From JBGPLH01 sp041486365 [NCBI: Thermodesulfobacteriota bacterium] (GTDB taxonomy: Bacteria > JAUYMQ01): DNA of 10,546 nucleotides. The notes under the pieces are model-generated. The model ran no database searches, was not told where the DNA came from, and worked only from the letters and a program-made list of their open reading frames with translations. Below, one piece after another: positions 2,113 to 5,970 of this stretch (the stretch's first letter is position 1; every line of letters starts with the position of its first letter). Position numbers and translations under genes: made by a program. Location of the stretch: the NCBI GenBank assembly GCA_041486365.1, contig JBGPLH010000090.1, positions 1 through 10,546 on the forward strand, read 5' to 3'.

Positions 2113-3663
2113 TCAGACCGGGATCACGCCGTGCTTCTTGCGCGGACGGTAGACTTCTTTTTTTTCGGAGAACTCCAGCGCGTGGGCGATCCGCTTGCGC
2201 GTCTCCCGCGGATCGATCACGTCGTCGAGGAACGCGGCGCCCGCGGAGAGGTAGGGATTGATCATGCCGCGGATCTGCTGGACCATCGCCTGCTTGGTGG
2301 CGTCGTCGGCGCCGGCCATCTCGCGCCGCGCGAGGATGTTCACCATGCCCTCGGGGCCCATCACGCTGATCTCGGCGGTGGGCCAGGCCAGCAGCAGATC
2401 CGGCTCGTAGGCAGCGCCGCACATCACGTAGTAGCCCGCGCCGTAGGCCTTACGGATCACCACGGTGCACTTCGGGACCGTCGCGGAGGCCACCATGTGG
2501 AGCATCTTCGCCCCGTGCCGGATGATCCCCTCGCGCTCCACCTTCGAGCCCACCATGAAGCCGGGCACGTCCATCAGGAACACGAGCGGGATGTTGAAGG
2601 CGTCGCACAGCGACACGAAGCGCGCGGCTTTGTCCGCCGAGTTCACGTCGACGATGCCGGCCATGTGGTTCGGCTGGTTCGCCACGATCCCGACGGCGCG
2701 CCCTCCGATCCGCGCGAGGCAGGTGATCATCGTCCGGGCCCACCTCGGCTTGATGTCGAAGTACTTCCCGTTGTCGACGATCCGCTCGATCACCTTGTAC
2801 ATGTTGTACGGCTTGCGGGGGTTGTCGGGGACGATCTCCAGCAGCGCGTCGTCCATCCGGTCGATCGGGTCGTTGCACTCCACAATGGGCGGCCGGTCGT
2901 CGCAGCTCGACGGGAAGTAGGAGAGGTACTCCCGGATCGCCGCGAGGCACTCCTCATCGTTGGCCACCTCGAGATCGGCGACGCCGCTCACCTCGGTGTG
3001 GATCTTCGATCCACCGAGCTCTTCCTCGGAAATTACCTCGCCCGTGACGGCCTTCACGAGCGGCGGGCCCGCGAGCGCCATGCTGCTGGTCCCCTTCACC
3101 ATGGGCACGAAGTCGGCCAGCCCGGGGATGTAGGCCGTGCCCGCGGCGCCGGGGCCCACCATCGCGCAGACCTGCGGGATCACGCCCGACATGATCACCT
3201 GCTCGAAAAAGAGCGCGCCCGTGGCCGCGAAACCCGCCGCGAAGCCGCTCGTTTCGTGTATCCGCGCGCCGGCCGAATCGATCAGCCACACGATCGGGAT
3301 CCGCTCCCGCAGCGCCAGCTCCCGCAGGCGGGACATCTTCGTCTCGTTCACCTGCCCGATGGAGCCGCCGAGCACCGTGAAATCATAGGCGCCCGCCGCA
3401 ACCCACCGTCCGTCGATCTTCCCCATGCCGGTGACCACGCCGTCCGCGGGGGTCTTCTTGCCGGCCATCTGGGGGCTCGTCGACTGGTGCGTCGCGTGGA
3501 TCCCGAACTCCTGGAAGGTCCCCTTGTCGAAGAGCAGATCGACCCGCTCGCGGCAGGTGAGCTTTCCCCGCTCGTGCTGCCTGCTCACCTTGTCCGCACC
3601 GCCCATCTGCATCGCGTCATCGCGGCGCTTCCGGAGATCTTCCACCATGTCCTTCAGGCTCAT
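2113..3663 (-). CDS. Acyl-CoA carboxylase, carboxyltransferase (beta) subunit, PccB-like
   Basis: This 516-residue protein is the usual length for PccB/MccB-type beta subunits. It transfers the carboxyl group from carboxybiotin to an acyl-CoA and should form a complex with a biotin carboxylase/BCCP alpha subunit, which is not in this window. Visible marks are the RGKLTCRERV N-terminal segment (32-41), the SAGARI turn (130-135), the Gly-rich GPGAAGTAY loop (170-178), the second-half loop MDVPGF (364-369), KAYGAGYYVM (405-414) and the terminal KHGVIPV. The residue matching the specificity position of actinobacterial PccB (Asp422) is Tyr412, and the GAGYYVMCG stretch resembles methylcrotonyl-CoA carboxylase as much as PccB, so the substrate stays open. 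I chose ATG 3663 because GGAGGG lies nearby and MSLKDMVEDL is a natural N-terminus. The frame runs further upstream to 3810 without coding character. An A8 run lies 17 codons before the stop. Confidence 0.93.
   Translation of the reverse strand: MSLKDMVEDLRKRRDDAMQMGGADKVSRQHERGKLTCRERVDLLFDKGTFQEFGIHATHQSTSPQMAGKKTPADGVVTGMGKIDGRWVAAGAYDFTVLGGSIGQVNETKMSRLRELALRERIPIVWLIDSAGARIHETSGFAAGFAATGALFFEQVIMSGVIPQVCAMVGPGAAGTAYIPGLADFVPMVKGTSSMALAGPPLVKAVTGEVISEEELGGSKIHTEVSGVADLEVANDEECLAAIREYLSYFPSSCDDRPPIVECNDPIDRMDDALLEIVPDNPRKPYNMYKVIERIVDNGKYFDIKPRWARTMITCLARIGGRAVGIVANQPNHMAGIVDVNSADKAARFVSLCDAFNIPLVFLMDVPGFMVGSKVEREGIIRHGAKMLHMVASATVPKCTVVIRKAYGAGYYVMCGAAYEPDLLLAWPTAEISVMGPEGMVNILARREMAGADDATKQAMVQQIRGMINPYLSAGAAFLDDVIDPRETRKRIAHALEFSEKKEVYRPRKKHGVIPV
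2158..2165 (-). other. A8 slippery run with upstream GGAG inside the carboxyltransferase gene
   Basis: On the minus strand the codons read GAA AAA AAA GAA, which contains the heptamer A AAA AAA in the zero frame. A GGAG lies 7 nt upstream, close to the arrangement that stimulates -1 frameshifting in E. coli dnaX. The run is conspicuous in such GC-rich DNA. A -1 shift would replace the last 14 residues by 18 others and stop at TGA 2104-2102, which overlaps the TTG start of the next gene. No strong downstream stem is obvious. Whether slippage occurs is inference. Confidence 0.35.
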
Positions 3664-3692
3664 CACGCTTTCCCTCCGCCGCTGTCGGGCCG
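3622..3692 (-). repeat. Direct repeat, proximal copy (leader plus first 14 codons of carboxyltransferase gene)
   Basis: This copy matches 3714-3784 at a fixed offset of 92 bp, with 8 mismatches in 71 positions. It includes the ribosome site and the true start codon. The 29-nt leader part has one mismatch; the other seven lie in the coding part, six of them at third codon positions. Confidence 0.9.
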
Positions 3693-3755
3693 CGCTGCGC
3701 GCGGCACCTCCGGGCGCCGCTTCTGCAGGTCCTCGACCATGTCCTTGAGGCTCAT
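3663..3755 (-). CDS. 30-codon mini-ORF, duplicated start of the carboxyltransferase gene, coupled to it
   Basis: ATG 3755 has the same GGAGGG ribosome site as the main gene and opens a 30-residue frame starting MSLKDMVEDLQKRR. Its TGA shares its last base with the ATG of the carboxyltransferase gene (TGATG), the classic layout for translational coupling. The first 14 codons repeat those of the carboxyltransferase gene. Six codons differ silently and one changes Arg to Gln. The remaining residues come from reading the repeated leader sequence out of frame (ending SGGGKA). It may be a leader peptide that feeds ribosomes to the main gene, or a scar of recombination with a paralogous carboxyltransferase gene. 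No independent protein function is evident. Confidence 0.5.
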   Translation of the reverse strand: MSLKDMVEDLQKRRPEVPRAARPDSGGGKA

Positions 3756-3784
3756 CACACTTTCCCTCCGCCGCTGTCGGGCCG
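3714..3784 (-). repeat. Direct repeat, distal copy (duplicated leader plus 14 codons)
   Basis: This is the second copy of the 71-bp unit, 92 bp upstream of the first in the direction of transcription. Because 92 is not a multiple of three, the copied start opens a different frame, which closes exactly on the main start codon. Confidence 0.9.
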
Positions 3785-3801
3785 AGCATTCTCAGGGTCG
3801 G

Positions 3802-3818
3802 CCCCCGCATCGCGGGGG
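3802..3818. other. Short perfect hairpin (7-bp stem, 3-nt loop) between hydratase and mini-ORF
   Basis: CCCCCGC and GCGGGGG flank an ATC loop in the 109-bp gap after the hydratase gene. No T-run follows on either strand, so a classical terminator is unlikely. It could protect or process the mRNA between the two genes. Function is not shown. Confidence 0.35.
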
Positions 3819-3864
3819 ACCTTCGGCGTGTCTCGTTAATCGTTCATCGTCGCGGGGGCGCGGC

Positions 3865-4653
3865 CTACCGGCCCTTCCAGACGGGCTCGCGCTTCTCGAG
3901 GAACGCCGCAATCCCCTCCGCGACGTCCTCCGTGAGCACGTTGAGCGTGAGCTGGGACTTCAAGTACTCGAGCGCCTCGTCGAAGCCCATCTCGTCCATC
4001 GTGTAGAAGGCGTCCTTCCCGAGCTTCAGGATGGCGGGGGAGAGCGAGGCGAGCTTGCGGGCCATGGCGTCCACCGCCTCCCCGAACCGCGCCTTGGGCG
4101 CCACCTGGTTCGCGATCCCGATGCGGTGGGCCTCGGCGGCGTCGATTCGCTCGCCCGTGAGGATCATCTCGAGCGTCTTCTTCCGTCCCACGTTCCGCGC
4201 GATCGTCGCCATGATGATCATCGGGAAGAGACCGCGCTTGATCTCAGGCGTTCCGAATTGGGCGTCTTCGGCCGCGATCACGAGGTCACAGGCCAGCGCG
4301 AGCCCGAAGCCGCCCGCCAGACAGTAGCCCTGCACGGCGGCGATGATGGGCTTGCCGAGCCCGTTCATCACCCGGAACAGATCGGTGAAGGCCCCACGGG
4401 CGTCGTGTTTCTCGAGGAAGGACTGGTCCTGCTGGAACATGCCGCTGCCGCCGAGATCGGCGCCGGCCGAGAAGGCGCGGTCGCCGGCGCCGGTGAGCAC
4501 GATCACCCGGACCTCCCCATCGGCCTTCGCCTTGCGGAACGAGTCGAGCAGCCCGGCATTCACCTCCGGGGAGAGCGCGTTGCGCGCCTCGGGACGGTTG
4601 ATCGTGACTCGGGCGATGTGATCCTTCACCTCGTACAGGACGACGTCGGACAC
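3865..4653 (-). CDS. Enoyl-CoA hydratase/isomerase (crotonase) family protein
   Basis: This 262-residue protein has the normal crotonase length. Family marks are INRPEARNALS (18-28), the oxyanion-hole segment FSAGADL (61-67), the second oxyanion segment around CLAGGFGLALACD (111-123) and FGTPEIKRG (133-141). Aligned with rat mitochondrial hydratase, Glu164 is kept (E137) but the partner Glu144 is Gly117. A standard two-glutamate hydratase mechanism is therefore doubtful, and an isomerase, hydrolase, decarboxylase or variant hydratase role is possible. The start is GTG 4653, with GGAGA 7 nt upstream. The gene lies 37 bp after the acyl-CoA dehydrogenase gene and 109 bp before the mini-ORF, in one apparent operon, so it probably acts on the enoyl-CoA product of the dehydrogenase. 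Confidence 0.9.
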   Translation of the reverse strand: MSDVVLYEVKDHIARVTINRPEARNALSPEVNAGLLDSFRKAKADGEVRVIVLTGAGDRAFSAGADLGGSGMFQQDQSFLEKHDARGAFTDLFRVMNGLGKPIIAAVQGYCLAGGFGLALACDLVIAAEDAQFGTPEIKRGLFPMIIMATIARNVGRKKTLEMILTGERIDAAEAHRIGIANQVAPKARFGEAVDAMARKLASLSPAILKLGKDAFYTMDEMGFDEALEYLKSQLTLNVLTEDVAEGIAAFLEKREPVWKGR

Positions 4654-4690: not shown

Positions 4691-5833
4691 TCAGAGGTTC
4701 ATCAGCTTGGAGATGATCTCCTTCATCACTTCCGAGGTGCCGCCGCCGATGGTGATCAAGCGCGCATCCCGGTAGGCGCGGCTCACGTCGTACTCGTCCA
4801 TGTAGCCGTAGCCGCCGTGGAGCTGGACGCAGTGATGGGCCACTTCGATCGCCAGCTCGCCGCAGAAGATCTTCGCCATGGAGATCTCCTTCACGCAGTT
4901 GATCCCCCGGTCGACCAGGTCGGCGCAGTGGTAGTTGAGCTGGCGTCCCGCCTCGATCTTCGTGGCCATGTCCACGATCTTGTGGCGGTTCACCTGGAAC
5001 TTCGCGATGGGCCGGCCGAATGCCTCGCGCTGCCGGCAGTACTCGATCGTCTTCTCGAGGATCAGGTCCGCACCGGCCAGGGCCGAGATCGAGCCGATCA
5101 GGCGCTCGCCCTGGAAGTTTTCCATGATGTAGTAGAAGCCCATGCCCTCCTCGCCGAGAAGGTAGCGCTTGGGCACGCGCATGCTGTCGAAGTGGAGCTC
5201 GGCGGTGTCGCTCGAGTGATTCCCCATCTTCTTGAGCTTGCGGGAGACGTGGAACCCGGGCGTGCTGGTGGGCACGAGGAAGACGCTCACGCCGTGGTAT
5301 CCCTCCTCGGGCTTCGTCTTCACGGCGAGCGTCACGAAATCGGCGCGGGTGCCGTTCGTGATGAAGGTCTTCGATCCGTTGATGACGTAATCGTCGCCGT
5401 CGCGCTTGGCGGTCGTGCGGATGTTCGCGACGTCGCTCCCCGCGTTGGGCTCCGTCACGCCGAGCGCGGCGATCTTCTCCCCCTTGATCGCCGGCACGAG
5501 GAACTCCTCCTTCTGCTCCTTCGTGCCATGCGTGTTGATGATCGGCGTGGCCATGTCGCTCTGAACCATCATGGCCATGGCCAGGCCCGACATCCGGCAC
5601 CGGGGCAGCTCCTCCGCGTAGACGACGGTGTACCAGTAGTCCAGCGCCGATCCCCCGACGTCCTCCGGGTAGCGGATCCCCAGGAAGCCCAGCTCGCCGA
5701 AGCGGTTGAAGACCTCGCGGGGAAAGATCTCCTCCCGCTCCCACTCCTCCGCGTGCGGCGCCAGCTCCTTCTCGCAGAAATCCCGGATCGTCTTCCGGAA
5801 GATCTCGTGGCTCTCGGTGAACTTCGCGCTCAT
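4691..5833 (-). CDS. Acyl-CoA dehydrogenase (FAD-dependent)
   Basis: The 380-residue product is full length for the family. It oxidises an acyl-CoA to the 2-enoyl-CoA and passes electrons to electron-transfer flavoprotein. Signature segments are GVTEPNAGSD (125-134, FAD/substrate binding), FITNG (157-161), RQREAFGRPI (268-276 region), QLHGGYGYMDEY (337-348) and IGGGTSEV (362-369). The position of the medium-chain catalytic Glu376 is a Gly in IGGGTSEV. A Glu is present in FQGERLIG (E243), the place used by isovaleryl-CoA and long-chain dehydrogenases. That favours a branched- or long-chain substrate, in line with the carboxylase and hydratase genes downstream. ATG 5833 is preceded by GAGGA at good spacing. 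This is the first gene of the leftward operon, with a promoter about 140 bp upstream. Confidence 0.94.
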   Translation of the reverse strand: MSAKFTESHEIFRKTIRDFCEKELAPHAEEWEREEIFPREVFNRFGELGFLGIRYPEDVGGSALDYWYTVVYAEELPRCRMSGLAMAMMVQSDMATPIINTHGTKEQKEEFLVPAIKGEKIAALGVTEPNAGSDVANIRTTAKRDGDDYVINGSKTFITNGTRADFVTLAVKTKPEEGYHGVSVFLVPTSTPGFHVSRKLKKMGNHSSDTAELHFDSMRVPKRYLLGEEGMGFYYIMENFQGERLIGSISALAGADLILEKTIEYCRQREAFGRPIAKFQVNRHKIVDMATKIEAGRQLNYHCADLVDRGINCVKEISMAKIFCGELAIEVAHHCVQLHGGYGYMDEYDVSRAYRDARLITIGGGTSEVMKEIISKLMNL

Positions 5834-5970
5834 CGTGTCCTCGTCGGGCCGGGGACGTCCGTCAAGGGGGCGGCTCGGCCGGTGATCGTGACTCGCACCC
5901 TGCGAGCCGCGCGGGACGGGGAAGCTATCAAGGAAGCCCCGGAGGGGGCGCCAGACGCTTCGACCAGCAA

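Follow-up and report, generated by a model that had tools for sequence, protein, structure and literature searches.

A doubled carboxyltransferase gene start in a Thermodesulfobacteriota contig: a possible scar of recombination

The start of a gene for an acyl-CoA/methylmalonyl-CoA carboxyltransferase (CT) is present twice in the window, that is, in the whole 10,546-nucleotide stretch of DNA analysed here, and the doubling is real. Its origin and age are read from the pattern of the sequence; the explanation that we favour, at a probability of slightly less than one half, is that two diverged CT starts recombined and left a scar. A 74-nt stretch spanning the CT start is present on the minus strand at 3787-3714 (upper copy) and again at 3695-3622 (lower copy), with 65 of the 74 positions identical (9 mismatches) and a start-to-start distance of 92 nt between the upper ATG (3755-3753) and the CT ATG (3663-3661). 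Alignment of these cores bears out the earlier note, which had described the ribosome site and the first 14 codons of CT as doubled 92 nt apart, and the coordinates 3755-3663 likewise agree with its 30-codon upstream frame, the TGA of which lies on the CT ATG (TGATG). A 20-nt pattern from the common leader has two matches in the window at up to three mismatches, a count reached by 0 of 200 shuffles. The direct repeat comprises one end of the gene without the remainder: the 74-nt core ends at codon 14, and any alignment of the spacer to CT sequence past that codon is at chance level (183-355 of 1000 shuffles were as good). The features of the region are as follows:

4691-5833, minus strand: acyl-CoA dehydrogenase gene, same strand as CT
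3865-4653, minus strand: enoyl-CoA hydratase (ECH) gene, upstream of CT on the same strand
3714-3826, minus strand: probable upper repeat unit, 113 nt, with 5' block and hairpin, leader, ribosome site, start and 14 codons (from alignment of core and 5' block)
3800-3821, minus strand: predicted upper hairpin (GG, bulged T, CCCCCGC / GAT / GCGGGGG, CC)
3760-3784, minus strand: 25-nt leader with Shine-Dalgarno-like GGAGG, upper copy, identical to the lower copy
3663-3755, minus strand: 30-codon mini-ORF MSLKDMVEDLQKRRPEVPRAARPDSGGGKA, its TGA overlapping the CT ATG
3622-3713, minus strand: probable lower repeat unit, 92 nt, adjoining the upper unit and holding the true CT start (from the same alignment)
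3687-3708, minus strand: predicted lower hairpin (GG, bulged T, GCCGCGC / GCA / GCGCGGC, CC)
3668-3692, minus strand: 25-nt leader with Shine-Dalgarno-like GGAGG, lower copy, identical to the upper copy
2113-3663, minus strand: CT gene, mmdA-like, 516 amino acids (TIGR01117, 584.2 bits)

The minus-strand order is acyl-CoA dehydrogenase, ECH, CT, and the doubled start sits between ECH and CT; the window holds one CT gene, and a second was not seen there. In both copies, a GTG immediately 5' of the ATG is also in frame, so that the exact start is uncertain by one codon. The upper start at 3752-3760 (minus strand) reads GTGTGATGA, in which the GTG is followed directly by TGA, overlapping the in-frame GTG-ATG; its lower counterpart at 3660-3668 reads GCGTGATGA. 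A further short sequence, CGGCCCGAC, occurs at 5843-5851, 3776-3784 and 3684-3692, that is, before the acyl-CoA dehydrogenase start and both CT starts. Three matches are reached by 6 of 200 shuffles, and the repeat itself supplies two of the three; this is possibly a shared operator, weak as the case is, and chance is also possible.

The main evidence on origin comes from the coding part of the repeat. As the earlier note had stated, seven of codons 1-14 differ, all within codons 2-14, six of them silently at position 3 and one by an Arg(CGG)/Gln(CAG) replacement at position 2. With 6 of 13 third positions different, the copies would be far beyond ordinary within-species variation. When seven changes were placed at random, 18 of 20000 simulations gave at most one amino-acid change. 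The argument that a neutral duplication shows no third-position bias proved too simple, since the true gene would add only silent changes. We therefore allowed for this in an asymmetric simulation, with the upper copy neutral and the lower copy limited to silent changes (20000 runs; transition shares of 0.33, 0.5 and 0.67). At most one amino-acid difference together with at least six third-position differences arose in 0.28%, 0.46% and 0.82% of the runs, respectively, and in 0.02%, 0.005% and 0% when at least four C<->G differences were also required; C<->G accounts for 4 of the 7 coding differences. All these tests are based on 7 differences in 42 nt. The lone replacement is at codon 11, which is variable among 43 relatives (E in 13, H in 10, R in 6, and others). 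The GC fraction at third positions is 1.0 in the upper codons, 0.857 in the lower copy and 0.932 in the whole CT gene; thus, all upper third positions are G or C, and both codons ending in A/T lie in the lower, true copy. Because neutral decay of the upper copy rarely gives such a pattern, the two starts probably diverged within functional CT genes, in support of the proposal of coding selection on both copies or of a paralogous origin for the upper one.

The strongest competing explanation, which we still regard as rather unlikely, is a plain tandem duplication of the leader and 14 codons in place, followed by divergence, with the pattern arising partly by chance or because both copies are weakly constrained as ribosome sites. 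The two units adjoin, as expected of a tandem duplication; the best-preserved part is the leader with the ribosome site, and 5' ends of CT genes do get duplicated, as in a rearranged locus described below (L067). The rarity of the silent-only pattern in the neutral-upper-copy simulations, the share of C<->G changes and the lack of A/T drift at upper third positions all speak against it. The direction of the differences outside these positions, in turn, is in its favour. At 5 of the 16 differences over both aligned parts, all of them outside third positions, A/T in the upper copy stands opposite G/C in the lower; the reverse holds at 2, both third positions, and does not occur elsewhere. The upper copy may therefore have decayed to some extent, and this A/T lean outside third positions weakens the reading as a recombination scar and strengthens that as a plain duplication.

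The leader also weighs against a scar: it is near-identical in the two copies, with 1 difference in 29 nt against 6 in 13 third positions (Fisher p 0.0019). Including the edge position makes the comparison 2 of 32 against 6 of 13 (p 0.0042); against all coding sites (7 of 42), the 2 of 32 are not significantly fewer (p 0.28). A near-identical leader between long-separated genes would need either constraint on the leader or homogenisation by conversion.

With these reservations, a recombination scar that was kept, one of the possibilities raised originally, fits best, given the silent coding pattern and the simulations. The upper unit would then be the leftover 5' end (hairpin leader, ribosome site and 14 codons) of a second, diverged, functional CT gene, either a paralogue in tandem or an orthologue acquired through recombination; we infer this source, as well as the step and its recency. 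The leftover start would have been joined at codon 14 to the leader of the surviving CT gene. Ribosomes that initiate at the upper site could synthesise a peptide of 30 residues and terminate on the CT start, and CT translation may be partly coupled to the upper frame as a by-product. In support of a scar, a related type of event exists in L067, and another genome carries two CTs (see below).

Beyond the first reading, the repeat is probably longer than the 74-nt core and consists of two abutting units, each with a possible hairpin. The stretch 3713-3684 of the lower copy (30 nt, that is, the 18 nt between the cores plus the first 12 nt of the lower core) aligns to 3826-3797 without gaps, with 23 of 30 positions identical. 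Under three scorings, 9, 14 and 53 of 1000 shuffles were as good when the 5' extension was tested against 3713-3622, and 9, 30 and 112 of 1000 against 3755-3622; for the 18-nt spacer alone, 71 of 2000 shuffles were as good. The repeat thus probably extends 5' of the core, with a significance that is moderate and depends on the scoring. Taken at face value, the 30-nt alignment places the boundary between the two units at 3714/3713, with no gap. In the upper unit, which exceeds the lower by 21 nt, the extra block lies between imperfect 12-nt repeats, GCGGGGGCCGAC and GCTCGGCCCGAC. A third, older copy further upstream was considered and rejected: the flank matches the upper unit no better than shuffles do (989, 978 and 959 of 1000 were at least as good).

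The hairpin predicted 5' of each ribosome site (GG, a bulged base, seven pairs and a 3-nt loop) is alike in both short pieces, and two of its pairs are reversed between the copies (C-G against G-C), that is, compensatory double changes. When seven changes were drawn at random 400000 times, all nine pairs survived in 3553 draws, 644 of which had at least two double changes, in a test framed post hoc on data already seen. Compared with shuffles, the short pieces give somewhat better folds (10 and 22 of 200 as good). The upper hairpin forms in a 43-nt piece and is missing from the minimum-energy fold of a 91-nt piece and of the 225-nt leader.

The overlap of the mini-ORF with CT is unremarkable, judging from the geometry of the repeat. 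The TGA (3665-3663) has its A in common with the CT ATG, giving TGATG at 3665-3661, or, when extended, TGATGA with two successive stops. Each copy contains TGATG, and the spacer is open in all three phases. The period of 92 is a multiple of three plus 2, so that the TGA of the repeat falls in the upper frame when there is no earlier stop; hence, a frame chance of about one in three suffices for the mini-ORF to end exactly on the ATG, and the surprise is of that order. A stop that overlaps or lies very near the downstream start is what a coupled leader would have, and it is present here. Passages of PMC6728339 describe TGATG overlaps as present in numerous prokaryote genomes and link them with translational coupling, as does a part of PMC10666635 for the same configuration. 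Some translational coupling of CT is therefore plausible as a consequence of the overlap, which is not evidence of design.

We consider it improbable that the upper copy is a selected leader, namely, a translated coupling or attenuation peptide, with the hairpin, ribosome site and stop-start overlap controlling CT output. The upper copy does have a complete Shine-Dalgarno-like site and start, the TGATG overlap of the kind tied to coupling in those passages, and possible hairpins with compensatory changes before each ribosome site. However, the overlap is explained by the repeat and a one-in-three frame with all phases open, and coupling has no need of a CT peptide. Rfam gave no match in the whole window (gathering threshold) or in 3600-3880 (E up to 5), so there is no known RNA leader among its families, and no promoter- or terminator-like sites were found in 3500-4000. 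The fold of the 225-nt leader does not surpass those of shuffles (z 0.66), nor do the folds of longer pieces of each unit (55 and 135 of 200 as good), and the doubled start was not seen in the 43 distinct loci of relatives that were scored. Of the earlier suggestion of a coupling leader, the coupling stands as possible; no test favours a selected function.

Relatives of the CT gene were sought in several collections. A scan of genome contigs gave 9 loci with 38-70% identity in the best segment, the 70% match covering only 113 residues (L009); a scan of viral contigs found none, and a plasmid search gave 773 records, all below 60% identity. Protein searches covered overlapping sets of 6, 188, 149, 119, 151, 71, 71, 377, 396 and 299 genomes from the phyla of the genomes reached by the first contig scan, under strict E-value limits except for the 6-genome set; those of 119 and 151 genomes gave nothing at 1e-210, a cut-off that would also have missed the known G003 and G004 loci, and these two results carry little weight. 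The nearest full-length CT protein found is 66% identical. Within 400 nt upstream of CT, none of the 43 distinct relatives scored (about 38-66% identical to CT; scoring passed over loci whose upstream stretch was masked or short) has a doubled start, the best score being 26 against 84 in the window. At such distances, this absence says little. L009 also gives two CT matches, but both belong to a single CT and flank a masked stretch in it.

One locus, L051, seen wider as L067 (genome G274), carries a rearrangement of a related type. At L067:3124-3975, a 5' piece of CT (codons about 3-106; 329 nt, 99% identical to the intact CT) is joined to an ECH 3' fragment (99% over 533 nt) that matches the ECH about 2.9 kb upstream. 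This is a recent rearrangement of the ECH-CT pair, with some 2.1 kb of other DNA lying in between. Over 400 nt separate the CT fragment from the intact CT downstream; the fragment lacks a leader and start of its own, and the locus has no doubled start. It is the only such case among 58 loci with CT matches, several of which are the same place twice. Genome G005 has two CTs of this subfamily, one of them cut by the contig end, each beside an ECH.

In relatives from the phylum of G005 and G218 (L009, from G005, is labelled Actinobacteria), a conserved leader of about 50 nt lies between ECH and CT, of the form GGCCC..GGAAGACTTCGG..CCGGCGAMGGGCC (L028:1390-1440, L033:1355-1409, L042-L051 and others). 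A model (R1) built from 10 of the relatives' CT leaders matched 18 of 149 genomes at E<=0.01, once each. The ten strongest matches (L042-L051) are directly upstream of CT, eight of them in genomes from which the model was built and two new (L044 and L051); the eight weaker ones have no CT in their loci. In the R1 alignment, which is fitted to the model, 94.7% of the cells are paired and 8 cells have double changes; the number of pairs with double changes is reached by 220 of 500 shuffles, and the RNAalifold covariation term is only -0.06. No Rfam family matched this leader at the gathering score, and it is a candidate for an unlisted cis-regulatory RNA. Membership of the window's own leader in R1 was rejected: 3811-3882 scores 11.1 bits (E 0.011 in 501 bases), but E is 0.23 over the whole window, where 12.8 bits are reached elsewhere, that is, background.

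An assembly chimera, in which the CT starts of two organisms or paralogues were wrongly joined in a metagenome contig, would account for two copies that resemble separate gene starts. We hold it to be quite improbable: an erroneous join made through the common 25-nt stretch would have collapsed it to a single copy, there is no long overlap at the 3714/3713 junction, and the base composition is similar on either side (0.678 and 0.656). Similarly improbable would be a selected two-step initiation device, with two hairpin and ribosome-site modules in series: the first would translate the CT N-terminus, serving as decoy or sensor, as far as the real start, and CT output would depend on passage through that first module.

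If the doubled start is a recombination scar, it documents, on a small scale and in good preservation, that two diverged CT starts recombined, and it calls for caution in annotating start sites, since ribosomes may still be captured by a complete but leftover ribosome site and start. If it is a selected leader, it would show a chance duplication turning into a coupling leader. Among the papers listed in a literature search, none dealt with this arrangement, which is not proof of absence.

Among known systems, the CT protein matches the mmdA/acyl-CoA carboxylase carboxyltransferase family (TIGR01117) nearly over its full length (6-516 of 516) but, at 584.2 bits, falls below the curated cut-off of 998.8, so that its exact substrate is not assigned. 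Translationally coupled gene pairs with TGATG, for which a passage of PMC6728339 describes termination-reinitiation, likewise have an upstream stop that overlaps the downstream start by one base; here, in contrast, the upstream frame is not a gene but a 30-codon repeat of the downstream gene's own start, and coupling is putative. Partial gene duplications with truncated 5' remnants resemble the window in having a 5' gene fragment beside the intact gene in direct orientation, and the CT fragment in L067 is an example from a relative, a looser analogue of the doubled start. Unlike such remnants, the fragment in the window comprises only the leader and 14 codons, both copies have a complete start, and the differences between them are mainly silent.
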